A stretch of DNA of 64,000 nt, taken from a virus. The position numbers and the translations under genes were made by a program. How positions within the stretch are numbered: the first letter of the stretch is position 1; each line of letters begins with the position of its first letter. This document shows, one piece after another, positions 3,859-59,319 of the stretch. The stretch spans positions 1-64,000 of IMG/VR virus record IMGVR_UViG_3300013125_000003; one strand, given 5' to 3'. The notes beneath the pieces are model-generated. The model searched no databases and was not told the DNA's origin. It saw only the letters and a program-made list of their open reading frames with translations.

Positions 3859-3861
3859 ATT

Positions 3862-3934
3862 GGGTTTGTAGTTCAGCGGTAGAACGGCGGTCTCTAAAAC
3901 CGTTAGTCGGGGGTTCGACTCCCCCATTCCCTCA
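3862..3934 (+). tRNA. Amber-reading tRNA (anticodon CTA)
   Basis: The D arm GTTC/GAAC, anticodon stem GCGGT/ACCGT with loop CTCTAAA, variable loop TAGTC and T arm GGGGG-TTCGACT-CCCCC are all well formed. The anticodon (3894-3896) is CTA, which reads the UAG stop codon. The acceptor stem GGGTTTG/ATTCCCT pairs poorly in its middle (T.T and T.C mismatches), so the charging enzyme cannot be guessed and a degenerate tRNA is possible. CCA is not encoded. A terminator follows directly. A tail-adhesin gene 2 kb downstream contains an in-frame TAG. Confidence 0.75.
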
Positions 3935-3986: not shown

Positions 3987-5855
3987 ATGTCTAAGAACAG
4001 GATAGCTCTAATCCAAGTATGGTTCGGTAAGCTTCCCAGCTATTTCGAGTACCACCACTCAACCTGCCTAAACCAGAGAATCGATTTTTACTTTTTCACC
4101 GACCAAGAAGTCGACAAAAAGTTCGAAGCTGAAAACGTAAAATTCTTCAAGATCACGCCGAGAGACGTTCAGCAGAGATTGTTCGACAGAACAAAAAGAC
4201 CTCTAGTAATCCCGTCAGCTTACAAGCTCAACGATATTAAGCCTACTTATCCGGACCTTTTTCGAGAGTATGTGAAGGATTACGAGTTCGTTGGTTGGTA
4301 CGATATTGACACTTTGCTTGGAGATGTTGCTTCCTGGATGGAACCTTATCTTGACGAGTTTGACGTGATCTCCTTCGGAGAGAACGGTCCAATTTACAAT
4401 CGCATCTCTGGACCTTTGGCGATAACTCGAAACACCGAAAAAGTTAGAACAGTTTACCTAAATGATCCAACCTTTTACGAGTGCATGTCAAAACCAGACT
4501 ACGACGAGTACGACGAGAGGAAGATAACCGAAACTTACGAAAAGCTAGGGATTCATGTGAAGGTCATGTTTGACTGTTCTAACATGGACCCGATCAGCTA
4601 CAAGATCAAGTTTGACGCACTTTGGACTGGCGGGAAAGTGTACGTTGGCGGAGTAGAAAAGATGATCTACCACTTCTTCAGAAAGAAGCACACTGAGTTC
4701 AAGAGAAGGGGCCAAGCGATCGTAGCTAGGAGAAAAGTGGAGTACTTGGACGATTTCTACTACATCACATACTTCACGCAGAGTTACGAGCCGACCGCTA
4801 GAACTCTGATCAGCACGATAGAAAAGTTCTCGAGAAGAAGGTGCATTTTGTACACGGTGAACTATTCGTCCACGTTAGTTCACGAGCTATCCGATCAATT
4901 CGTAGTTAGGCGGATAGACATCACAGGCAGGGATTTTCTTGACAAGCGCGGGCGCAGCTTCAACACGATCACTTCCAAGCCGGTCATTCAACTCGACTCA
5001 CTTACTGCTTTTCCAGGAAAGAAGTTCGTGTTCCTTGACACCGACATTTACATCACGGTAGGCATGGATTCGATAGCTAAGTACTTCAACCAGCTGGAAA
5101 ATTACCCCTTGACGAATTCCCACGTGCACGACGTCATCTACAGCATAGAAGATAACGGCGACCGCGTTAGTTCGTTGCACGCTCTTGGCGACGAGATAGG
5201 TGTTCCTGTTAGAATATTTCCTAGACGAAAGACCAACGTGATGCTATACGACGAAAGGTCAGCGTGGTTCTTCAAAGAGCAGATGGACATCTACAACGAG
5301 CACAAGGATTCGACCAGGAGGTCCATCTTTAAGTTTCACGATGAGGACACATTCAACATCATACTGTCAAAGTACGACCTCCCTAAAGCCCTCCCAGTAG
5401 TGGACATTGAGGAATCGTTCGACATAAACCTAAACATTTACGATAATTACACTTACAACTGCTGTCCAATATCTGACAAAGCAATCGTTCCGAAAACTGA
5501 TCGTGACGTTTACGTGTTTCATGGTTACAAGAGTCCGGAAGTTTTTCAGCAAGTCGAAGACACCTACGGCTCTACTGTTCTTGATAAAACCGACATGATC
5601 GTCGAGTACGACGGGAAGGACGTTGTTCTGATAAAAACATCGTTTCTCAAGGAGAAAAGGATCGAACCGAAAGTAAACGTCATTCTGAAGGACGATGATG
5701 CCGAAATATTTAGGTGTGGTTGGGAAATATTCAACTCTCAGCTGTTCTTCATCTGGGGAATTCACTTACAGAATCGCAAGACCTACTTGGTAGAACTGAC
5801 CGAACAGGGAACTGACCGTTTAATTTTCAGGACCGAGCTGATCACAAACTACTGA
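3987..5855 (+). CDS. Two-domain glycosyltransferase-like protein
   Basis: A 622-residue protein. Residues 1-240 match the DUF6625-type glycosyltransferase pattern: IALIQVWFGKLPSYF, ...IDFYFFTD, YKLNDIKPTYPDLF and GWYDIDTLLGD, where DID is the probable metal-binding DxD. Residues about 255-470 form a second GT-A-like domain with ITYFTQSYEPTARTLIST and FVFLDTDIYI (second DxD). The C-terminal 130 residues are a beta-rich region with no family recognised. Sugar and acceptor are unknown; cell-surface, virion protein or modified DNA are all possible. It is transcribed just after the tRNA terminator and is followed by the adhesin gene, so modification of the adhesin is an attractive guess. Confidence 0.7.
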   Translation: MSKNRIALIQVWFGKLPSYFEYHHSTCLNQRIDFYFFTDQEVDKKFEAENVKFFKITPRDVQQRLFDRTKRPLVIPSAYKLNDIKPTYPDLFREYVKDYEFVGWYDIDTLLGDVASWMEPYLDEFDVISFGENGPIYNRISGPLAITRNTEKVRTVYLNDPTFYECMSKPDYDEYDERKITETYEKLGIHVKVMFDCSNMDPISYKIKFDALWTGGKVYVGGVEKMIYHFFRKKHTEFKRRGQAIVARRKVEYLDDFYYITYFTQSYEPTARTLISTIEKFSRRRCILYTVNYSSTLVHELSDQFVVRRIDITGRDFLDKRGRSFNTITSKPVIQLDSLTAFPGKKFVFLDTDIYITVGMDSIAKYFNQLENYPLTNSHVHDVIYSIEDNGDRVSSLHALGDEIGVPVRIFPRRKTNVMLYDERSAWFFKEQMDIYNEHKDSTRRSIFKFHDEDTFNIILSKYDLPKALPVVDIEESFDINLNIYDNYTYNCCPISDKAIVPKTDRDVYVFHGYKSPEVFQQVEDTYGSTVLDKTDMIVEYDGKDVVLIKTSFLKEKRIEPKVNVILKDDDAEIFRCGWEIFNSQLFFIWGIHLQNRKTYLVELTEQGTDRLIFRTELITNY

Positions 5856-19163: not shown

Positions 19164-19799
19164 ATGGACGTTGTACTAACCGGCACTTTCGCAAAGAGCC
19201 TAAAGCGCTTACGCAATCGTCAGAGGTGGTTTTGGAAGGCTTGGGATTGCCTGAGGTACGACGTGCCTCGCTTTCTTAAGAACCTGAGAACTTACAGAAA
19301 GGACCTTTGGCACACTTATCCGTGGGACACTCACGGAGCTCTCAGACTCCTTCGCACGAACATCACAACAACTGCAGACTATATCGAAAAGTACGGTCAC
19401 GAAGTTGACGAATCTCGCCTAAAGAAGATCGAAAAGATGCGTCGTGCTGTAGAGATCCTAAACTATCACATTGAGGATGATTTTGTCAGCGTAGCTGAAG
19501 AACAGCTCGGTAAAAAAGTGTCCGATTGGATTTCTTTCGAAAGCGATGAAAAGAATCCAAACTGGACGAAAGTTGTGTCAAAAGCTACCGAACAGGAAGA
19601 GAAAGATAATGCTGAGATCTATGCACTGTCCAGAAAGTTGGAAAAAGACACCTGGAAAGAGCTCTTCGAGATACTTCACGGGCAGAACTACGAAGACTAC
19701 AAAAAAGTCGAAGAAAATTTGACTGAGGAAGAGAAAAAAGATGAGAACCGTTGGTATAAATGGTTCGACGGCTCTGGTATGAAGGGCTGGTGGGATTAA
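19164..19799 (+). CDS. Conserved phage hypothetical protein
   Basis: A 211-residue protein with RYDVPRFLKNLRTYRKDLW near residue 30 and YPWDTHGALRLLRT after it, followed by long charged helices. Proteins with this FxxNLxxFxxxLWxxxPWD pattern are frequent hypotheticals in large phages. No function known. Confidence 0.6.
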   Translation: MDVVLTGTFAKSLKRLRNRQRWFWKAWDCLRYDVPRFLKNLRTYRKDLWHTYPWDTHGALRLLRTNITTTADYIEKYGHEVDESRLKKIEKMRRAVEILNYHIEDDFVSVAEEQLGKKVSDWISFESDEKNPNWTKVVSKATEQEEKDNAEIYALSRKLEKDTWKELFEILHGQNYEDYKKVEENLTEEEKKDENRWYKWFDGSGMKGWWD

Positions 19800-19804
19800 A
19801 CAAA

Positions 19805-21805
19805 ATGAAACAGATGTCGCAAACAAAACAACCATCTCCAGCAACTAAAACTCCACTGGTTGACTCGTTCGGTAAGGACCTAACCCAGCTAGCAGCTGAA
19901 GGAAAATTGGACCCGGTAGTCGGAAGAGCAGAAGAGATAAAGCGGTGCAGCCAAATCCTTTCCCGAAGAAAAAAGAACAACCCTTTGCTGATCGGAGAAC
20001 CAGGAGTTGGAAAAACTGCGATAGTTGAAGGTTTGGCTATGAGAATAGTCAACCGAACCTGTTCCAGAGCACTGTTCGGAAAACGAATAGTTGCTCTTGA
20101 GCTTGCAAATTTGGTCGCCGGTACGAAGTACCGCGGTCAGTTTGAGGAACGCATGGAGCAGATCATCCAGGAAGTTCAGTCATCAGGAAACATCATACTG
20201 TTCATCGACGAAGTTCACGCTATCGTCGGAGCAGGCGCAGCTAGCGGATCGCTTGATGCAGCTAACATATTAAAACCCGCTTTGGCCAGAGGAGAGATCC
20301 AGTGCATCGGTTCAACAACGACTGAAGAGTACAGACTTTCTATCGAAAAGGACGGGGCCCTGAACCGTAGGTTTCAGCAGATAATGGTCAACCCAACGAC
20401 AGCCGAAGAGACTCGAATAATCCTCGAAAACATAAAGAGCAAGTACGAGGATCACCACGCAGTTAAGTACGATGCTGAAGCTTTGGACGCGTGCGTTACT
20501 CTGAGCGAAAGGTACATAGCTGACCGGTTCTTACCGGATAAATCAATTGACCTAATGGACGAAGCTGGCGCAACGGTTCACGTGAACGGCGTTGTCGTTC
20601 CGGACAAGATGAAAAAGCTTGAGGACAAGCTGACTGCCATTCTGAAGAAGAAAAAGAATGCTGTTGACTCCCAGGATTACGAAGCGGCTGCCAAGCTACG
20701 GGACGAAGCTCTCGAAGCAGCAGATCAGATAACAAAAGCAAAGAGCGATTGGGAAAAATCGCTTGCTAAGACCGAAAATCGCTTATCTGTGACTGATGGT
20801 GACATCGCTGACCTTGTCTCAACGATCACAGGCATACCTGTCAACCGGATGACTGGAACCGAGATAGAGAAACTTTCCTCAATGGAACCTTCTCTCAGAA
20901 AAGTAATAGTCGGACAGGACGATGCCATTCACAAATTAACTAGAGCTATAAAAAGATCGAGGGCCGGCTTAAAGTCAAAGAAAAAACCCATCGGAACTTT
21001 CCTGTTCATCGGACCGAGCGGAGTCGGGAAAAGCGAACTAGCAAAGCAGCTTGCTAAATACCTATTCTCATCGGAAGATGCTCTGATTCGCATAGACATG
21101 TCCGAGTACAGTGAAAAGTTCACGACCAGTCGGTTGAACGGAGCTCCTCCAGGATACGTAGGTTACGAAAGTGGCGGTCAGTTAACAGAAAAGGTTCGCC
21201 GGCGTCCTTACTCTGTCATTCTGCTAGATGAGATCGAGAAAGCTGATCCAGCTATCTTCAACACTCTTCTGCAAGTTCTGGACGACGGCCGAATGACTGA
21301 CGGCCAGGGAAAAACGGTTGACTTTAAGAACACAGTCATCATCATGACGTCGAACATAGGGGTTAGAGTCCTTCAGGACTTTGGAACGGGCATAGGTTTT
21401 GCTACCAAGTCGGTAGAACAACAGAGAGAAGCAGCTAACGATGTTCTCAGGAAAGAAGTCAGCAGAAAATTCCCCCCGGAATTCATCAACCGTATTGACG
21501 ACATCATAACTTTCAACTTGTTGGCTAAGGAACACATACGGTCAATCGTGGAAATCGAACTGGTCGACCTACAGAACAGAGTTTCCGAAAATGGGTACTC
21601 GTTCGAGCTAACCGAAGAAGCAAAGGAATTCTTGATCGACAAGGGTTACGATTCAAAATTCGGAGCGCGTCCTCTAAAGAGAGCTATTCAGACACACCTA
21701 GAGGATGTCATTGCCGAAGCCTATATTGACAGTAATGTTCGGCCTGGTGATCACCTAGTCATCACGAAAAGTGAGTTTGGTGACACCCTAATCATACAGA
21801 AATGA
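19805..21805 (+). CDS. ClpC-like double AAA+ ATPase without N-domain
   Basis: A 666-residue unfoldase. D1 has Walker A GEPGVGKT (64-71) and Walker B ILFIDEVHAI. A UVR-like coiled segment follows (LEDKLTAILKKKKNAVDSQD), then D2 with Walker A GPSGVGKS and Walker B VILLDEIEKA, then a C-terminal ClpB/D2-small domain (GARPLKRAIQ). The N-terminal adaptor-binding domain of ClpC/ClpA is missing; D1 starts at residue 20. D2 contains GTGIGFATKS, at the place of the ClpP-binding IGF/LGF loop, so it may dock on host ClpP or act alone in remodelling phage complexes. ATG 19805 is preferred to the upstream in-frame start inside the previous gene. Confidence 0.85.
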   Translation: MKQMSQTKQPSPATKTPLVDSFGKDLTQLAAEGKLDPVVGRAEEIKRCSQILSRRKKNNPLLIGEPGVGKTAIVEGLAMRIVNRTCSRALFGKRIVALELANLVAGTKYRGQFEERMEQIIQEVQSSGNIILFIDEVHAIVGAGAASGSLDAANILKPALARGEIQCIGSTTTEEYRLSIEKDGALNRRFQQIMVNPTTAEETRIILENIKSKYEDHHAVKYDAEALDACVTLSERYIADRFLPDKSIDLMDEAGATVHVNGVVVPDKMKKLEDKLTAILKKKKNAVDSQDYEAAAKLRDEALEAADQITKAKSDWEKSLAKTENRLSVTDGDIADLVSTITGIPVNRMTGTEIEKLSSMEPSLRKVIVGQDDAIHKLTRAIKRSRAGLKSKKKPIGTFLFIGPSGVGKSELAKQLAKYLFSSEDALIRIDMSEYSEKFTTSRLNGAPPGYVGYESGGQLTEKVRRRPYSVILLDEIEKADPAIFNTLLQVLDDGRMTDGQGKTVDFKNTVIIMTSNIGVRVLQDFGTGIGFATKSVEQQREAANDVLRKEVSRKFPPEFINRIDDIITFNLLAKEHIRSIVEIELVDLQNRVSENGYSFELTEEAKEFLIDKGYDSKFGARPLKRAIQTHLEDVIAEAYIDSNVRPGDHLVITKSEFGDTLIIQK

Positions 21806-30500: not shown

Positions 30501-32123
30501 TTAATTGATTTCGCCAGCTTCTTTCATTTCCTCAAGTTCAGCTTCGCTAAAAACGGTTACTTTCTTAGCTAAGATTTTCATTACTCGTGAATACGCTGAC
30601 TTGGTTGAGATGCCGGTGTTAGCTTCCTTGTTCTTGGCTTTAGATTTTACCCAATTATCATCGCTCCAAGAAGTTTCCCAGCCATTTTCTCTGAGAACTT
30701 TAGCCATCTCGTCGTAATGGATAGCAAACGGATCTTCTACTTCTATGCCTTTCTTCTTTGCTATTCGCTCGCGGTACTTCTGAAGTTCTGGCTTTGGCAC
30801 GATAACCGTGGAAAGTCCGTAGAGACTTATGACCGATATGAAAGTCGGAAATAGATCGTCAGGTATCTGAGCTTCCGGGTTTCCGACGAAATCCTGAACG
30901 GTTTCCGGAATCTCTTCGAATTCAAGAGTTTCCGAATTCACGACGTAAAGTGGGTAGAGGTCTTCTCGTTTTGGGTTCTTTGCTCTGCTGCGAGACCTTA
31001 CCATCTCAACGTGACGCGTCAGTTTTGAGTTGATTTCAGAAAAACCCATGGCTAAGAGAAGCTTGTTGATCGGTTCTACGATCAGCCTGAAAAATTGCTG
31101 TTCACGATCGGTCGGTACGGCAAAATCCGGAAACACTCCCGGAACGTACGCAAACACGTCAAAATCGTAATCGTTATTGTTGGGATCGCAGTAGTAAAAT
31201 TTAATCTTTGATCCGCCGCGAATCATCGCGTACTTTTGGTTCTCAGTCTTGGTGATTACGTGATTGTGGTAGGCTGCTGCTCTGCCGTAAATCGGCATGC
31301 CAGTTCCAATGATGAGAGGGTTCAAACTCTTCACGTGTTCTTCATAAACTCGAACGTTGAAGTTGAAAGCTATGCTGTCGATAGGCATGGTGTCCATCTC
31401 ATTTTTCATTTCCTGCATGACAGGAATGAGATCCTTTTCGAGATCAAGGTCGTAACCCTTATCTAGAAGGATCCAGTAGATCTTTTTAAGATTTTCTCTT
31501 GCCCATATAGGGTAAGACGATTGGATAGCTTCCAAGCCCTTGATCATTAGGACCGGTTTGTCTAGAATTTTCGAGCCCTTGGTAGCTACCTCAAAAACGT
31601 ACTTTTTCTTTGCAACTAGGATGCCTGCCCTGGAAACGTTTTCTAATTCGAAGACCAAACGGTTTTTCGTGTGAAAGTGATTGGCGTACTTTTCGAAAGC
31701 TGCTTTGAAGTAATCGTCTAGCCTGTACTTGTTGATAGCCAAGCAGATTTCCAAAGCTTTCGTGTCGTCCATCTCGATACCTTGCACTGATTTGATGGCA
31801 TACTCGATGCACGAGTAAACCGAGTCGGTGTCAGTGTAAATAGCTGAATCACTTTCTATCGGTTGCACTACGTGACCTACAAGTCCGAGTTTCTCGTGAA
31901 GCTCCGTGTCGAGGTGCCATCGATTTCGAAAGTAGTGATTTATCGCTTTGATTGTGAATTTGATAAGATCCTGACCCTGAAGGGTGATGGACTGTGCGAT
32001 GTCGTTGTTGTGGAAGTAAAAATACCTGTTTCCGAAGGCTCCGTAAAAGGAGTTGATGAGGATCTTGATAGCGTTCTGCTTCAAGTCCAACGACTTGATC
32101 TGTTGTTCTAAAGTTAAGCTCAT
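30501..32123 (-). CDS. 43: DNA polymerase, C-terminal half (split gp43)
   Basis: A 540-residue family B polymerase fragment. It begins about 18 residues before motif B (KILINSFYGAFGN), then has motif C IYTDTDSVYS and a thumb with IYGRAAAYHNHVITK. The 3'-5' exonuclease and palm motif A (DxxSLYP) are missing and are not found elsewhere in the window. The start is a clean ATG after a noncoding divergent region, so this is an intact split gene, not a deletion inside an ORF. Split gp43 is known in some Aeromonas T4-like phages and in RM378, though break points differ. Confidence 0.85.
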   Translation of the reverse strand: MSLTLEQQIKSLDLKQNAIKILINSFYGAFGNRYFYFHNNDIAQSITLQGQDLIKFTIKAINHYFRNRWHLDTELHEKLGLVGHVVQPIESDSAIYTDTDSVYSCIEYAIKSVQGIEMDDTKALEICLAINKYRLDDYFKAAFEKYANHFHTKNRLVFELENVSRAGILVAKKKYVFEVATKGSKILDKPVLMIKGLEAIQSSYPIWARENLKKIYWILLDKGYDLDLEKDLIPVMQEMKNEMDTMPIDSIAFNFNVRVYEEHVKSLNPLIIGTGMPIYGRAAAYHNHVITKTENQKYAMIRGGSKIKFYYCDPNNNDYDFDVFAYVPGVFPDFAVPTDREQQFFRLIVEPINKLLLAMGFSEINSKLTRHVEMVRSRSRAKNPKREDLYPLYVVNSETLEFEEIPETVQDFVGNPEAQIPDDLFPTFISVISLYGLSTVIVPKPELQKYRERIAKKKGIEVEDPFAIHYDEMAKVLRENGWETSWSDDNWVKSKAKNKEANTGISTKSAYSRVMKILAKKVTVFSEAELEEMKEAGEIN

Positions 32124-52298: not shown

Positions 52299-53105
52299 AT
52301 GAGACACAGCGAAGAAGGCATAGCTGGAATACCTGGCGAGGAAACTTTCGTATCGACTTACATGGGTGTGGTGGAGGACATCGACGACCCAAACTACGAG
52401 GGTAGGTGCAGGATCAGAGTGTTCTCCGTGTTCGATGACCTGCCTACAGAGGACATACCTTGGGCAGTTCCGGCAGCAAAACCTATGTTCTTCGGACAGG
52501 ACGCAAAGGCCGGATCGATTTCCATACCGAAGGTTGGAGCTATCGTAAAAGTTAGGTTCGCAACCGGAGACATTTACACGCCCGAGTACATTCAGATCCA
52601 AGAGCTGGGAGACGACATCAAGGAACAGCTTAGAAAGGGAGGTTCCAAGTACGAGGGAGCTCACTTCGTCCTGTTCGACGGTGACGAGGAAATAAAAGTC
52701 TGGTTCGACAAGCAGATCGGCTTGCAGATAGAGTTGAAAAAATCTTTCGTAAGGATAGACAACGAAACGTCAAACGTTCTCATTGAGCACAAGGACAACT
52801 TATCGTCCATATCAATGGAAGGTAACGTGATAAGAATAGTCTCTGATTCCGAAGTCAACGTGACTACCGGTTCTAAGGCTACCGTGTCAGCAAAGACCGT
52901 TCACCTTGACGGTGTCAACACGGTCGTAGGTCACAGCACCATACAACACAGCGCGGTTCTCGGAGAACCTCTGATGGCTCTGCTCAAGACAATAGCAGCT
53001 GCGGTAGACGCAAAGATGCCTTCGACCGCAGGAGCAGTGTCAGCTGCGGTAGAAGCAGCAAAGCCCATGGTCCTTTCACGGTCCGTTACTATCGGAGCTT
53101 ACTAA
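52299..53105 (+). CDS. 5: gp5/VgrG-type baseplate spike (OB-fold, no lysozyme domain)
   Basis: A 268-residue protein. Residues about 15-110 form the gp5 OB domain: TYMGVVEDIDDPNYEGRCRI, RVFSVFDDLPTEDIPWAVP, KVGAIVKVRFATGDIYTPEY. A beta-rich stem follows (LQIELKKSFVRIDNETSNVL, GNVIRIVSDSEVNVTTGSKA) that would fold as a triple-stranded beta-helix. Unlike T4 gp5 there is no lysozyme domain, so a separate muralytic enzyme (such as the SLT protein at 7.6 kb) may be used. It converges with the minus-strand cargo island, the stops overlapping by 4 bases. Confidence 0.85.
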   Translation: MRHSEEGIAGIPGEETFVSTYMGVVEDIDDPNYEGRCRIRVFSVFDDLPTEDIPWAVPAAKPMFFGQDAKAGSISIPKVGAIVKVRFATGDIYTPEYIQIQELGDDIKEQLRKGGSKYEGAHFVLFDGDEEIKVWFDKQIGLQIELKKSFVRIDNETSNVLIEHKDNLSSISMEGNVIRIVSDSEVNVTTGSKATVSAKTVHLDGVNTVVGHSTIQHSAVLGEPLMALLKTIAAAVDAKMPSTAGAVSAAVEAAKPMVLSRSVTIGAY

Positions 53106-53932
53106 TAAATTATACTGAATTCGTTTTCGCACTGGAAGAGTTTCTGCTCTTCCCTAGGGTCGTTAGTATCACCCAAGTGAGCTTTTGTGAACTTTAAGGA
53201 ACCGGTTTCCACAGACTTTAAGACGTCCTTTTCCAGTTCTGGAAGAAGGTTTCTGTTCGGAAAAAACCTGCTAGAAGCAACGTACTTTCCCAAAAGGTCC
53301 TTTCTTACCATTTCCATGTGGTGCATCGTGATGAATTCCTTCTCAAAGACGAGAGTTTTCCTGTATGAATCGTCAATCATCCCACGAGTTGGGTCTATCC
53401 CAGAAAAGTGAGTCTGGAGAACGTGGTGCCTTGAATTTGCAGTGATGCGGTAGATGAATGGAACTTTCCACCTTGAGTAACCTCGGTGAAGTGTCGGAGT
53501 CACGTAATTGATGTAGTGCACGGCGGTAGCGTCCAACCCGTCAGCTTCTATCTTTTCCTTAGCCCTTGCGAACTCCTCTGCTCTGTAAAACTCGTCAGCG
53601 TCCATCGACAGGTAGTGCGTGCAACCCTCTAGCTTGGCAACTTCCAAGCAGCCTTGCCTCTTGTTAAGTTCGAACTTCTTAGCGTTCATCGCTTCCGCAG
53701 CAGACCTTAGGGAAGTTGGTCTGAACATCGTGAACTCGATGAGTTTGTCTATGAGTCCCGAATTTCTTAGTGATTCGAGTGTCGGTATGAGGTCTGGTGA
53801 AGCTTTGGTGCCACCCCAAGAGATTCTCTGGTAGGAAACGATCACTAGGTCGACGCTCGGTCGAATCGATCGTATCGAATGCTCCAGAGTCTCTAACCCA
53901 TCGAACACTATGTAGCCTGCTGCCAGTTTCAT
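53102..53932 (-). CDS. GT2-like glycosyltransferase
   Basis: A 276-residue protein with the GT-A start KLAAGYIVFDGLETLEHSIR, KLEGCTHYLSMDADEFYRAEE (DxD metal motif) and VHYINYVTPTLHRGYSRW. It resembles glycosyltransferases that decode as FDGxExLExSI...DxDEFY, which I have seen in phage cargo clusters. Donor and acceptor are unknown. It ends the five- to six-gene minus-strand island. Confidence 0.7.
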   Translation of the reverse strand: MKLAAGYIVFDGLETLEHSIRSIRPSVDLVIVSYQRISWGGTKASPDLIPTLESLRNSGLIDKLIEFTMFRPTSLRSAAEAMNAKKFELNKRQGCLEVAKLEGCTHYLSMDADEFYRAEEFARAKEKIEADGLDATAVHYINYVTPTLHRGYSRWKVPFIYRITANSRHHVLQTHFSGIDPTRGMIDDSYRKTLVFEKEFITMHHMEMVRKDLLGKYVASSRFFPNRNLLPELEKDVLKSVETGSLKFTKAHLGDTNDPREEQKLFQCENEFSIIY

Positions 53933-54237
53933 TTCTTTAGCTTCTCTACCAGGTCGGCGATTTTTTGAACCGAATTGAAGTTGGCCGGAGTGACCTCCGA
54001 TTCCGGAACGGCAACGTTGAATTCCTTTTCTAGGAAGACCACGATGGACACCATCGAAAATGAATCAACGTAACCCCCGCTTACCAGAGGAGTGTCGATC
54101 GATATCGCTTCGCGATCCCGGCAAGAGCACGATTCCCAAGGGAACATGCACGAGGATTCGTGAGTTTTCCTGTTTCCGACTTCCACAAACTCGTCGGTCA
54201 CGTACTGGAGTATCTTGCTAACTGTTTCTGTGTTCAT
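53929..54237 (-). CDS. Acyl carrier protein with Cys-rich insert
   Basis: A 102-residue four-helix carrier protein. GGYVDSFSMVSIVVFLEKEF carries the phosphopantetheine attachment Ser (Ser59, DSF) and helix II; VPESEVTPANFNSVQKIADL is the usual helix III-IV end. It resembles stand-alone ACPs of sugar- or peptide-modifying pathways more than the fatty-acid ACP (DSL). Between helix I and the active site is an unusual insert with C30, C37 and C39 (SSCMFPWESCSCRDRE). It overlaps the next gene by 20 bases. The acyl group and transferase partner are unknown. Confidence 0.8.
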   Translation of the reverse strand: MNTETVSKILQYVTDEFVEVGNRKTHESSCMFPWESCSCRDREAISIDTPLVSGGYVDSFSMVSIVVFLEKEFNVAVPESEVTPANFNSVQKIADLVEKLKK

Positions 54238-54970
54238 CTTCGTATCTTTTAATCAATTTTTTGTACTCAACATTAGCAGATGGATTAACCTTCCAAATAC
54301 TGGGAAGTACTTGCTTTTTCCACTCATAGTAAGGATTGTCTTCCACGTAAAGATCCCAAGTTAAGTGATACGCTAAGTGCTTTCGAGTCGCTACCCATTT
54401 CTTATTCTTAGCATAAACCAAACCGCTGACAGTTGTGTCCTGGTAATGAATTCCTTGGATAAGATCGAGGTTCTCTCTCTTAATCGTTACGAAATTGTTA
54501 GCAGTATTTGTAAAAACTGGACCAGGGATTACTAACGATTTTTTAGAAAGTTCATCGTACTGTTCAGTTCCAATTACTCGGTCTGCTCTCAGATAGTAAT
54601 TTCCACGGTAAAGAGAAGCAGAAGAAACTATTGCATCTGGTTGTTCCAAATTTTCGAGTATCTCGGAAAACATTGATTTCACATCGTAAACGTAAAGGTC
54701 GCCGTCCGTTATCGTGATGTATTTGTACTTCTCTAGCAACCACGAAAAATCGTGAATGAAGATGTCTATCGCTTGGTTGGAGATATTATCTTCGAATTGC
54801 ACATAGCCGGTTAGATCAGTCTGCAAAAAATACTCTGCAATTTGATCTGACTTTTCGCTTTTATTTTCAATGATAAAAAAATCGCAATCGGCATTTTTGA
54901 TGGAATCGAACGATTTTTTAATGATGTCTGGATGCAAGTACGTTAAAACTACACAGATATGATCTTTCAT
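54218..54970 (-). CDS. Glycosyltransferase-like protein
   Basis: A 250-residue protein with HICVVLTYLHPDIIKKSFDS, FFIIENKSEKSDQIAEYF and YKYITITDGDLYVYDV (TDGD as metal-binding DxD), the layout of a GT-A fold. The C-terminus includes HLAYHLTWDLY. It looks AT-richer than the structural genes. The stop is TAG. Substrate unknown. Confidence 0.65.
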   Translation of the reverse strand: MKDHICVVLTYLHPDIIKKSFDSIKNADCDFFIIENKSEKSDQIAEYFLQTDLTGYVQFEDNISNQAIDIFIHDFSWLLEKYKYITITDGDLYVYDVKSMFSEILENLEQPDAIVSSASLYRGNYYLRADRVIGTEQYDELSKKSLVIPGPVFTNTANNFVTIKRENLDLIQGIHYQDTTVSGLVYAKNKKWVATRKHLAYHLTWDLYVEDNPYYEWKKQVLPSIWKVNPSANVEYKKLIKRYEDEHRNS

Positions 54971-54971
54971 G

Positions 54972-55673
54972 TTACTTTACTATTTCAGGTCGGCGATACG
55001 TTGTTCCTCCGCCGTTTCTCTTGGCTGTGATAACGTTAACAAATATGCCGTATTCTCCTCGATCTTCCATGAACTTTTTGATTCGGTTCCACATATCAGC
55101 GTCAGCTGCGTAAGATTTTCCCGTTTCCTCTATCATGTTTCTGAAAAACATTCCAAAGTGCCTGTAATTTACGCAAGTTGAAACTTTGAACAGTCGATTG
55201 GTTTCAGGCCGATACTCGGTGTAAAGTTTGTCCGTTTCAATCGGTGGGTAAGCTCCGCACTTAGTCGAAACAAAATTAGTCCCCGTAGCTTCTATGCAAT
55301 CGGAAATTTCCTTAAGGTGATTTTCCAAAAACATATCATCGTGATCTAGGTGGCAAACGTAATCGTACCCTTCGTTTAGCGCTTTTCTGATCCCAACGTT
55401 AGACGCGTTTACTCCGCCGGTTCGCCAAAGGTCCATTCCTGAGTACTTGATACGTTCACCCGCGGCTGGGAGGTTTTCCACGTAAATTTTGCTGGTATCA
55501 ACTATCTCAGCTAACTCAAACAACTCGTCTGATTTGGAATAATCGTCTCCTATCAAAAAAAGTTTGTAGTCTTGGTGAGTTTGGTTCTTAACAGACTCCA
55601 GCGCTAATTTTAAGTGGGTAGCAGTTGACCCATCTAGTTTAAAGTACGTTGGCGTTACTATCGCTAGCTTCAT
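54972..55673 (-). CDS. GT2-family glycosyltransferase
   Basis: A 233-residue protein: KLAIVTPTYFKLDGSTATHL, SVKNQTHQDYKLFLIGDDYS and YDYVCHLDHDDMFLENHLKE (DHDD metal motif), all typical of family 2 glycosyltransferases. The C-terminus contains YRHFGMFFRNMIEE and DADMWNRI, consistent with an acceptor-binding lobe. It overlaps the next gene by 35 bases. Confidence 0.75.
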   Translation of the reverse strand: MKLAIVTPTYFKLDGSTATHLKLALESVKNQTHQDYKLFLIGDDYSKSDELFELAEIVDTSKIYVENLPAAGERIKYSGMDLWRTGGVNASNVGIRKALNEGYDYVCHLDHDDMFLENHLKEISDCIEATGTNFVSTKCGAYPPIETDKLYTEYRPETNRLFKVSTCVNYRHFGMFFRNMIEETGKSYAADADMWNRIKKFMEDRGEYGIFVNVITAKRNGGGTTYRRPEIVK

Positions 55674-56871
55674 CGAGTTTTTTCTTATTTTTAATGACGC
55701 TGAACCTTTTCTTTATTCCTGGGAAAGTTTGATACGGAACTCCGAGTTTTTCTGACACAGCTTTGCACATAGCCAACTCGTCAGCTCGGTGAGTATCGTC
55801 AAAGATAATGGTCACGTCTGTGTTGAACAGGTCCAAATTTTCCGAAAAACCAGTTCGGTTTCCCTTTCCGATCCATGGGCCATCGACCAATATGACATCG
55901 TACGTTAAACTAAGCAAAGATTTTTCAAGGACTGCTCGATCGTACCATTGACCGTTTAATGGAGCGTATATGTACGTTGACTTATCTGTTAGATTCATCC
56001 ACTCTGGGTCATTCTCTATGCTTATCATCTTGTACCTTTTAGCCAGATCGATGGTTCCGTAACCACTTCCTAATTCTAAGATGGTAGCACCAGGTAAAAT
56101 GTTGCGAAATACCCATCCGTAAAGTTTAGAATCGATAGCAAAACCTGGCGTCTTTTTTATTCCGTACTCCAAAAGCTTTCGGTTGATCGAAATTTTTGGA
56201 ATAGCCACACCGCGCACCCGGTTAGAAATATTTTCGCCATGAATGATTTGTAGAACTTCTAAATTCGAAACTTTTGTTCCGATCATCTTTTCTTTTATCC
56301 GACCATGCCCAGAGTAAATGCCAATTCCTGGAGAATCGGTCAGAATGGACGTAAATGGAGAAGTTCTATCACCGTACTTGGCAGTAGTAAAAATGTTGCT
56401 AACTGGATCGTACATACTGTAATGATCCACGTCAAAGTAAAAATTAGAGAGTTCTTCAGCTTTACCCAAGTACTCATTTGCTTTTTTCTGAAGAGTGTCT
56501 ACAAAATCTCTAGAATAACAATCGTCTCGATCCAATCTAGAAAGAAGGTAAATTCTTTCCTCAACGTTTTCAGTTATGAATTTTTCGATAGCCGAACCCA
56601 ACTCAGAAACCTGGCTGATCCTAATGACATGCTCGTTTGGCAAAACTGGTCCAACCTCTGTCACACTTTCGTCGACAATGGTCAAAAGAATAAAGTTTTT
56701 ATTGCTCTGATTTTTCAGAGAAGGTCGACAGTACGTGTCGTACAGGCTTATGCTATTCTTTAACCATTTTTCCCACTCTAAACCCAACTTGGATTTGCAG
56801 ATGAGCTCTCCATTTTCGTCGTACCATTTCATGGCTACTCTAGAAATGATGATGTGCTTGTACTTTTTCAT
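55639..56871 (-). CDS. Glycosyltransferase-methyltransferase fusion
   Basis: A 410-residue protein. Residues 1-225 resemble rhamnosyltransferase-like enzymes (HIIISRVAMKW, YCRPSLKNQSNKNFILLTIV, YLLSRLDRDDCYSRDF with a DRDD motif, and SPGIGIYSGHG). Residues about 245-400 form a Rossmann methyltransferase: GATILELGSGYGTIDLAKRY is the SAM motif, MISIENDPEW motif II, YDVILVDGPW motif IV. The fusion suggests a sugar that is transferred and then O-methylated, capping a glycan. Confidence 0.7.
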   Translation of the reverse strand: MKKYKHIIISRVAMKWYDENGELICKSKLGLEWEKWLKNSISLYDTYCRPSLKNQSNKNFILLTIVDESVTEVGPVLPNEHVIRISQVSELGSAIEKFITENVEERIYLLSRLDRDDCYSRDFVDTLQKKANEYLGKAEELSNFYFDVDHYSMYDPVSNIFTTAKYGDRTSPFTSILTDSPGIGIYSGHGRIKEKMIGTKVSNLEVLQIIHGENISNRVRGVAIPKISINRKLLEYGIKKTPGFAIDSKLYGWVFRNILPGATILELGSGYGTIDLAKRYKMISIENDPEWMNLTDKSTYIYAPLNGQWYDRAVLEKSLLSLTYDVILVDGPWIGKGNRTGFSENLDLFNTDVTIIFDDTHRADELAMCKAVSEKLGVPYQTFPGIKKRFSVIKNKKKLDEASDSNANVL

Positions 56872-58329
56872 TTAGTCTATTTTTTCGTATTTTCCAGTGA
56901 TCCTAGGAATAAAAACCTCCTCCGGTTGGTAGTGAGGTTTTATCATTTTTTTGTAGCTTTTACGAAGCTCTGATTCGAAATCAGTGTTCGGGTTTAGGGT
57001 TAAGCTCTGTTGGTGAAGTCTACGGTAGAAAACCGAATCTTTTAGCACAGAAACCGAAGCTAGCCAGCTGACTCTTTGGATGAACTCTGTGTCCGCTCCG
57101 CACTTCCATGCTTGGTACCCACCAGCGACCTCATCAAGTACTTGTTTCTTTATGCACATGATTCCGTGCGCAACATTTATCTTAGCTTCAACCGCACCGC
57201 CTGTCCTAAAGTTATTGTACGAAAGTCTAAGAACTTCACTGTTCAAATTATCTGCCACTTGCTTTACCAAAAATTCGCGCATGACATCGTCTGAATCGAA
57301 CCTAATTATGTATTCTTTAGTTGCTTGGGAGATTAGCGTGTTCGTCGTAATGTACGTTCCTGAATTCTCAAGCATCATGTACACTGATAAATTTCGGTAC
57401 TTTTTCTTTATCTCTAGTAGCTTACTTAAAGTTTCCTGGCACCCATCAACTCCGACGATAACTTCAAAATCATCGTACCCTTTGAAGTAAGATTGGCTCT
57501 CTATCGAATCTAAACACTCCTCAATGTAATCAGCAGTCTTGTATGCAGTTACCACTATGCTGAAAGTCTTTTTAATTGGATTTTCAGTCGTTGTAGTTGT
57601 AGTTTGAAACAGAGAATCTGAAAATTTCGGGTATTTCTTTTTCTTTAATGAGCTGAGAGTGATAAGAGTCTGCTTTCTGCTGTAATCGTTGATCATTGCG
57701 TGAGCTCTTTTTGATGTGTGTTCTTCCATGCTGGTCGTGTCAATAGCGATGACGCTATCTGTCTGAAGAGCAGAAAGGTTGGAATCGTTAAGGAGCTTTC
57801 CGCTGACTATCTGCTTAGAACTAACGATCTTTGGAATCAAAAAATTATTCTTTACCACGTACGAAAATTCAACCTCAGTTATCGAAGAAACGGATGATCG
57901 TCTGACCGACGAAAAAGCTAAGTTGAACTGATCTCCTGCTTTAACGTAACACAATTTAGTAGAAAGATTTCCTTGGTGTTGCCTAAAAAATAATCCGGAA
58001 TTTTCCGGTAAGACAAATGAGTTTATTAAGAACATTCTAGGATCAACGTAGAGTCGATCGTGCTCATGATAAGTTAACAAAAACTCAACGAAGTATGGAT
58101 TCTCTTCTACCACACTTGTTCCGGTTGGAGACCGGTGAATGTTAACTTCGATTAAGGAAACAATGGCAAAGAATTTATCGACCAGTTCTAACTCTCTACG
58201 CGGCATTCTTCCCCTAGTCATTATCACCAGCTCAAGGTTTTCCCCTCCAAGCACTGAAGCAATTGACCTGATTGATTTGGCAAAGAAATTTTTTGCCGAA
58301 TCATCGTAATAAGTGAAAACCTTTAGCAT
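56872..58329 (-). CDS. Glycosyltransferase with unknown N-terminal domain
   Basis: A 485-residue protein. Residues 1-250 are of unknown type (LKVFTYYDDSAKNFFAKSI, LVIMTRGRMPRRELELV), possibly a degenerate GT-A domain. Residues about 255-480 are a GT2 domain: TFSIVVTAYKTADYIEECLD, VIVGVDGC, TKEYIIRFDSDDVMREF (DSDD). First gene of the island; promoter region 58330-58407 is AT-rich and shared divergently with dnaJ. Confidence 0.7.
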   Translation of the reverse strand: MLKVFTYYDDSAKNFFAKSIRSIASVLGGENLELVIMTRGRMPRRELELVDKFFAIVSLIEVNIHRSPTGTSVVEENPYFVEFLLTYHEHDRLYVDPRMFLINSFVLPENSGLFFRQHQGNLSTKLCYVKAGDQFNLAFSSVRRSSVSSITEVEFSYVVKNNFLIPKIVSSKQIVSGKLLNDSNLSALQTDSVIAIDTTSMEEHTSKRAHAMINDYSRKQTLITLSSLKKKKYPKFSDSLFQTTTTTTENPIKKTFSIVVTAYKTADYIEECLDSIESQSYFKGYDDFEVIVGVDGCQETLSKLLEIKKKYRNLSVYMMLENSGTYITTNTLISQATKEYIIRFDSDDVMREFLVKQVADNLNSEVLRLSYNNFRTGGAVEAKINVAHGIMCIKKQVLDEVAGGYQAWKCGADTEFIQRVSWLASVSVLKDSVFYRRLHQQSLTLNPNTDFESELRKSYKKMIKPHYQPEEVFIPRITGKYEKID

Positions 58330-58407
58330 TTACTGGCTTTTCTTTTATTTAATTCAAGTAAACTTGAAGCACATTTTTAGTAATATACTCGAAAAACGGA
58401 GATAGAT

Positions 58408-59319
58408 TTGGCCGAGGAAACTTATTATTCGGTACTTGGAGTAAAAAAGGACGCTAATCAGCACGATATAAAGAAAGCTTTCAGAAAGCTTTCAAAAGAG
58501 TATCACCCTGACAAGAATCCGAAGGGTGAGGAGCAGTTCAAAAAGATCAACGAAGCTTACTCGGTTCTCAGCGATCCGAAAAAACGTCAGCTTTACGACA
58601 CGACCGGTTCCGCAAAGGAACGCGTGCCTCCTGTCGGAGACCCGTACTCAGATTACTTCAGCCAGTTCAGGAACGTCGCGTTCTCGATGATGAACCTTGA
58701 GTACCTGAACATTCACGTTGACCGGCACTTCAAGCTCTCTGATCTCATGAACGGAATCGAGGACACAGTAACCTACTCAATCTCCAAAGCGAGCTTAGCC
58801 ACCTCCAAAGTTGAGGAAAAGAGCATTAAGTACTTTGTCAACATGTCTGAACGCGGTTACCCGTTAGCCATGATAGGCGATAATATAGGAATAGTCGTGC
58901 GCGTGCGCGGGGGAGGTTCCAGCCAGGAAATCGACGGGTTTGACGATGTTTTCAAGAGGCGTCAGCACGGAATAGCGACCGGCGACCTATTCATCAGGAT
59001 CATCATAGACATGGAAGGGCTCGAGATAACCGAGACTTCTGACCTAGTTCAGACGGTTGACGTTTCGGTGTACGACGTCCTGTTCACCGAGGAACTCGTC
59101 CTAGAGAACCCGTTCGGCAAAAAGTACAAGATAAAGACTATCAACTCTCCTGCTCTCTCTAACATTCAGGTTAGAATTCCGGAGCAGGGTCTCGTTTCCG
59201 CTATGGGAAAGCGAGGATCCTACATATTCAGGCTGAACGTCACCAGACCTGACATTTCCAAACTTAGTGAAGAAAAACTAGCCCTTCTTAAAGAATTACT
59301 TAGAGACCTTGATAAATAA
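58408..59319 (+). CDS. DnaJ-like co-chaperone
   Basis: A 303-residue type-II-like J protein. The J domain (residues 4-66) is complete with [20 protein letters not shown], the essential HPD in EYHPDKNP, and [15 protein letters not shown]. There is no zinc finger; the C-terminal two-thirds carry beta domains like DnaJ/CbpA substrate-binding parts ([34 protein letters not shown]). It would recruit host DnaK. Start is TTG, preceded by GGAGAT, one of the few Shine-Dalgarno-like sites here. It directly precedes the protease-scaffold and capsid genes, suggesting a dedicated capsid-folding chaperone. Confidence 0.85.
59311..59319 (+). promoter_or_regulatory. T4-type late promoter formed by the last dnaJ codons
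   Basis: GAT AAA TAA of dnaJ is GATAAATAA, 21 bases before TTG 59341. The spacing supports TTG 59341 as the start of the protease. Confidence 0.6.

Follow-up and report, generated by a model that had tools for sequence, protein, structure and literature searches.

An acyl carrier protein with a conserved His-Cys insert in a glycosyltransferase-like gene island of a probable huge-phage fragment

Why should a phage carry an acyl carrier protein (ACP) gene among glycosyltransferase (GT)-like genes, in the region where its virion genes lie? The question is raised by a 64,000-nucleotide stretch of viral DNA, called the window here, which makes up positions 1 to 64,000 of a virus record 131,445 bases long. 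GT clusters are common in phages, their products and targets being mostly unknown, and a carrier protein shared by a small number of huge-phage glycan clusters offers an experimental handle on them.

Layout and setting of the island

The island consists of six minus-strand ORFs at 53102-58329, exactly as given in a preliminary description of this DNA, and lies between a Phage_base_V/gp5-like baseplate-spike gene (52299-53105; Pfam, 1.9e-6) and dnaJ (58408-59319; Pfam). The ORFs, which run in the order 58329→53102, are tightly packed or overlapping, with overlaps of 4, 20, and 35 nt in three adjacent gene pairs. The AT-rich gap at 58330..58407, which separates the divergent 485-aa gene from dnaJ, is where transcription of the island probably starts; since a sigma-70 scan of the island gave no excess over shuffles, it is the layout of the genes that points to a promoter there.

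Five of the six proteins had been taken as GTs in the preliminary description. Three of them (485, 233, and 410 aa) indeed passed the Pfam cut-offs (Glycos_transf_2 or PF11316), while the other two (276 and 250 aa) scored below and are GT-A-like by their DxD motifs. The 485-aa protein (56872..58329, minus strand) is composed of about 250 N-terminal residues of no assigned family (residues 1-250 had no Pfam match) and a GT2 domain with a DSDD motif (Glycos_transf_2, 2.5e-15, residues 257-362). In the 410-aa protein (55639..56871, minus strand), a Rhamno_transf-type GT with a DRDD motif (PF11316, 1.4e-11) is followed by a probable C-terminal SAM methyltransferase domain; the fusion of a GT with a methyltransferase, which had been proposed earlier, is confirmed by Pfam in its GT half, and its methyltransferase half is suggested by the motif ILELGSGYG and a sub-threshold match. 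The 233-aa protein (54972..55673, minus strand) is a GT2 with a DHDD motif (Pfam Glycos_transf_2, 1e-8).

The ACP gene is flanked by the genes of the two divergent GT-like proteins. On one side, with a 20-nt overlap, a probable GT-A protein of 250 aa with a TDGD motif is encoded (54218..54970, minus strand); it fell below every GT cut-off with no family match, its DxD motif being in the GT-A-like context YITITDGDLY, and its single-sequence fold was of low confidence, with glycogenin-type GTs as the top matches. On the other side, with a 4-nt overlap, is the gene of a GT-A-like protein of 276 aa with the motif MDADEF (53102..53932, minus strand), for which Pfam GT2 was matched at 0.17 only, below the cut-off, and the DxD motif again has a GT-A-like context (YLSMDADEF). 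Relatives of this 276-aa protein were found in another huge phage (34% identical; L021:14456-15238) and in Lak phages (29%); by tblastn, the 250-, 410-, and 485-aa proteins had no relatives in phage records. Two further candidates of the glycosylation type were noticed outside the island, namely a DUF6625 protein (window 3987-5855, plus strand; 3e-31) and a 318-aa protein among fibre-type genes, which is GT-like by eye (G000 123626-124582, plus strand).

In terms of base composition, the island is a mosaic. The island genes had been described as AT-richer and, for that reason, as a later acquisition. Against the record mean GC of 44.4%, this description is correct for four GT genes (36.9-42.9%; 39.7% in the 485-aa gene), but the ACP gene (48.9%, 96th percentile) and the 276-aa gene (47.2%, 90th percentile) are among the GC-richest, and later acquisition is unsupported for these two. 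They are also the two island genes with relatives in a 374-kb phage contig; we thus infer that the ACP and the 276-aa protein may form an older module, which the AT-rich GTs joined later.

The record is probably a fragment, because it ends within its final gene and shows no terminal repeat, and we regard it as an incomplete portion of what is probably a huge phage. No close DNA relative was found among known phages, and the nearest major capsid proteins are those of the huge phages LR756500 (38%), Lak (32%), and LR756502 (32%). LR756500 was considered as a carrier of the island and rejected: its capsid and protease match, but the 24 kb examined contained no relative of the island or the ACP. 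A chaperone-rich set was also noticed in this record, which comprises GroES-like (G000 84145-84468), GroEL-like (G000 94456-96066), and ClpA-like ATPase (window 19760-21805) genes, all read by eye, together with dnaJ. This set resembles that of the chaperone-bearing 'moraphages', for most of which Bacteroidota is the predicted host (PMC12619734). Furthermore, a tRNA with the anticodon CTA, of the amber suppressor type and labeled tRNA-Pyl by ARAGORN, is encoded at window 3861-3933 (plus strand); TAG is the stop in just 7 of 115 ORFs, and the late genes read well under table 11. An ORF at window 30501-32123 (minus strand) resembles the C-terminal half of a family B DNA polymerase and begins around the motif KILINSFYGAFGN; the N-terminal half was not seen adjoining it, and the gene may be split.

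The carrier protein and its His-Cys insert

The ACP of the window (102 aa; 53929..54237, minus strand) is, as judged by its profile match (PP-binding PF00550, 25.3 bits against a cut-off of 20.8), the serine in a D-S motif, and its predicted helical fold, a member of the carrier protein superfamily. Ser59 (codon at 54061..54063, minus strand; GGYVDSFSM) is the predicted phosphopantetheine attachment site and is invariant in the aligned ACPs, both phage (6/6) and bacterial (8/8); this serine and Cys30, Cys37, and Cys39 in an extra segment had been pointed out before and are indeed present. The AF2 model has a mean pLDDT of 81 with helices at residues 3-17, 59-73, and 90-101, and its best Foldseek matches were PigG, PltL, and DltC. 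The solved proteins matched best carry aminoacyl, peptidyl, or D-alanyl groups and are not fatty-acid ACPs. Assignments to more specific families were rejected, as the scores were well below the cut-offs for fatty-acid AcpP (TIGR00517; 25.1 bits, equivalog cut-off 70.45), the nearest NCBIfam model, the ornithine-lipid ACP of OlsHI (NF052616; 46.8 bits, cut-off 130), and DltC (30.9 bits for a cut-off of 68 and 16.3 for 52.35). PHROG 5934 was also rejected as an orthologue group, the match being weak (E 0.0068, residues 39-100).

A tblastn search found a 46% identical ACP in LR756502.1 (642,428 bp), which is taken here as the complete 642-kb genome reported by Al-Shayeb et al. (PMC7162821), and scans of sequence collections added four more phage ACPs (L011, L020, L021 on a 373,759-bp contig, and L037 on a 183,716-bp contig). 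The insert-bearing ACP has so far been found in the window and these five other phage records, with pairwise identities of 42-71%. Because four of the five non-window ACPs were first found by searches with the ACP core, not with the cysteine motif, and a core-based scan also recovered the one in L037, the shared cysteine motif is not an artefact of selection. Contigs from the motif scan in which the match fell outside an ACP-like frame were discarded, as were L005 and L006, whose matches were 31% identical and, in L006, inside a structural-type ORF.

Related proteins without the insert occur in bacteria. A core-peptide scan of genome_contigs (84,980 species) gave eight relatives, which belong without exception to Bacteroidota, Cloacimonadota, or unclassified MAGs, and the insert is absent from all eight. 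A profile search matched 47 of 395 Bacteroidota and 40 of 124 Cloacimonadota genomes; the best bacterial loci inspected have no insert, and nearly all other matches start after its position. The closest bacterial ACPs are 40-51% identical to that of the window and have the core xDTxLISGGxVDSFSM in common with it. In a tree made with the insert removed, the phage ACPs and the bacterial family of the ligase-ACP-KBL type (see below) split from the other sampled ACPs (100/96), and the six phage ACPs clustered with weak support (88/39). In a first tree, the window ACP had stood apart from the other phage ACPs, but that tree contained distant long-branch rows, and the separation was gone once those were removed.

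The insert spans residues 26-39 (54121..54162, minus strand) with the pattern H-x-S-x-C-x2-P-x3-C-x-C, and H26, S28, C30, P33, C37, and C39 are invariant across the six phage ACPs. Invariant positions make up 6 of 15 in residues 26-40 compared with 15 of 80 elsewhere, which is a trend but not significant (p = 0.09). As read from the sequence, His26 and the three Cys residues look like a four-ligand metal site, and the insert would most likely form a small knuckle that binds a metal and docks the ACP to a phage partner enzyme. Alternatively, the insert might act as a redox switch, in which a disulfide bond between the cysteines tunes the function of the ACP with no metal site. Cys-x-Cys pairs are capable of forming disulfides, and the insert is flexible in the ACP model, which is metal-free and poorly resolved in this region (pLDDT <50 at residues 21-27); we nonetheless consider the switch unlikely and prefer the four-ligand metal site, because the His is invariant alongside the three Cys residues at fixed spacing in all six members. 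Such a metal-site-like insert would be unusual for an ACP, given that it has no sequence alignment to any of the listed carrier proteins of solved structure.

The presence of an ACP in a phage is already known from a Vi01-like phage (PMC3220722) and roseobacter prophages (PMC8224337); the prophage ACPs sit with fabF and fabG, unlike that of the window, and no Vi01-like phage was among the tblastn matches of the window ACP at E 0.01. It is the conserved insert that appears to be new. The literature searched contained no description of an insert of this kind in an ACP, and this novelty is provisional because the coverage of the literature was partial.

Gene neighborhoods of the phage and bacterial ACPs

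All six insert-bearing phage ACPs were placed in clusters for soluble sugar modification. In addition to the GT-like genes of the window, the ACP gene is accompanied by those of a PfkB-type kinase, a nucleotidyltransferase, and an epimerase in L020, by epimerases, a C-methyltransferase, and (by eye) fucosyltransferase-like genes in L002, by FkbM-like and radical SAM genes in L011 (by eye), and by GTs in L021. An SGNH acyltransferase-like gene overlaps the ACP gene in L011, L020, and L021 and encodes a GD(S/C)H motif along with a conserved D-H pair; its Pfam scores were below the cut-off, yet it was the sole SGNH match in each record. In L002, the ACP gene overlaps a DUF1796-like gene (a weak match), and in L037, where DegT- and GMD-like genes were recognized by eye, it is followed by WcbI, a FabH-type ketoacyl synthase, and a hexapeptide transferase. 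In the window and the record of L021, virion genes of the baseplate type are found no more than about 12 kb from the clusters. Separately, a GT cluster of the 634-kb phage LR745206 (regions L098 5479-6153 and 2-1330, and L099 10545-12668) includes an SGNH relative (24%) but has no ACP in the 12 kb read, and the GT clusters of LR745206 and LR756502 adjoin a clpA-like gene.

The genes of the closest bacterial ACPs mostly lie between those of an acetate-CoA-ligase-like and a KBL-like PLP enzyme. Two loci are exceptions: in L012, the ligase is present, yet the locus is of the polysaccharide type (GTs by eye), and in L014, the ligase and an MBOAT acyltransferase are beside the ACP. This cassette of an acetate-CoA-ligase-like enzyme, a small ACP, and a KBL-like enzyme is conserved in Bacteroidota and Cloacimonadota (L012-L019, L064-L068), with an additional zinc-type dehydrogenase in L015, and may represent an ACP-dependent form of the KBL-type reaction. 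The cassette ACPs have the same core as the window ACP but not the His-Cys3 insert, and the ligase and KBL-like partners of the cassette are absent from the island, where the neighbors are GT-like genes.

A proposed role and its alternatives

As the best explanation, we tentatively propose that the island genes specify a soluble pathway of sugar attachment in the cytoplasm, in which the ACP would deliver acyl or aminoacyl groups to sugars on a phage-made component. The five GT-like proteins would act as soluble enzymes and build a short glycan in the cytoplasm, probably on a phage protein of, for example, the tail or baseplate. A phosphopantetheinyl transferase of the host (AcpS or Sfp) would activate the ACP at Ser59 to the holo form; none was recognizable in six phage records. 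The acyl or aminoacyl group might be supplied by a host enzyme or, in L037, by the ketoacyl synthase, and an SGNH, WcbI-like, or similar transferase, of the kind encoded by the relatives, would then move it from the ACP to the sugar, with the His-Cys3 insert possibly docking the ACP to its partner enzyme. Decoration of the virion would suit the location of the island among virion genes and that of the L021 cluster near baseplate-type genes. Several findings count against this pathway: the ligase-ACP-KBL cassette, and not a glycan pathway, is the setting of most of the closest bacterial ACPs, no acyltransferase was recognized in the island or in the 131-kb record, itself probably incomplete, and two of the GT assignments are weak.

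In a less probable alternative, the island would act on the host surface, altering its O-antigen, capsule, or glycolipid with acylated sugars, and thereby exclude competing phages. Such a role has been proposed for the GT clusters of jumbo phages (PMC7824862), the relatives encode sugar-nucleotide enzymes, and a bacterial ACP relative (L012) is in a polysaccharide-type locus. None of seven phage records, several of them incomplete, however, has a flippase, GtrA, or a lipid-linked initiating glycosyl-phosphate transferase, the markers of Gtr seroconversion and Wzx-type surface glycan systems (GtrA, Wzx-type flippase, Bac_transf), whereas the same searches match in 7 to 13 of 14 control genomes. 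Also, no membrane protein was found in the clusters examined, where strongly hydrophobic segments occur only in known soluble folds (ACP, NAD synthase, and ketoacyl synthase). A cytoplasmic target is hence favored over an independently built surface polymer, given the lack of export and initiator genes and of membrane-helix-like segments, while the absent export genes leave room for export machinery that could be borrowed from the host. Of the earlier suggestion that the ACP may donate an acyl group to a glycan on the virion or the host surface, the glycan context is supported by the sugar clusters around all six phage ACPs, the three overlaps with SGNH-like genes, and the one nearby FabH-type enzyme; as for the choice between virion and host surface, the evidence leans to a cytoplasmic target, for example, a virion protein. 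It is quite improbable that the ACP works in the chemistry of lipids or small molecules, such as a condensation of the KBL type or a metabolite derived from an amino acid, and is among the GTs by chance or as cargo. The cassette setting of the closest bacterial ACPs and the ornithine-lipid ACP as the nearest NCBIfam model speak for it, but no AMP-ligase (PF00501) was found in six phage records including that of the window, all six phage ACPs are in sugar and not lipid clusters, and the insert sets them apart from the cassette ACPs.

Among the known systems, the GT and capsule-modification clusters described in cyanophage P-SSM2 and other jumbo phages (PMC7824862) likewise combine GTs with sugar enzymes and methyltransferases; the window island differs in having few or no sugar-nucleotide enzymes and in the presence of an ACP, and the main text of that paper makes no mention of an acyl carrier or ACP. 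In L037, the ACP is beside FabH, aminotransferase, and GT genes, and this locus resembles, in terms of gene content, the flagellin-glycosylation loci of Campylobacter. Those loci have extra ACP and FabH genes, a likeness that serves here as a lead.

With the Dlt system (DltA ligase, DltC carrier, DltB of the MBOAT type, and DltD), the island is connected by the DltC-like carriers among the best structural matches of its ACP, but the phage clusters have neither a ligase (six records) nor an MBOAT-like membrane protein and are apparently soluble. The SGNH-like partner that overlaps the ACP in three phages may correspond to DltD in its role, which we also treat as a lead. Extending the proposed pathway, huge phages might share a dedicated metal-binding ACP that feeds a phage SGNH, WcbI-like, or similar transferase, giving virion-protein glycans that are acylated or aminoacylated, as a soluble and phage-specific counterpart of Dlt; in this general form, we consider the proposal doubtful. 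A set that is itself Dlt-like, with AMP-ligase-like, decarboxylase-like, carrier protein, and MBOAT genes, was noticed at L003 9897-15270, in DNA deposited as a phage from human faeces; it adjoins a two-component system, and this DNA is probably bacterial.
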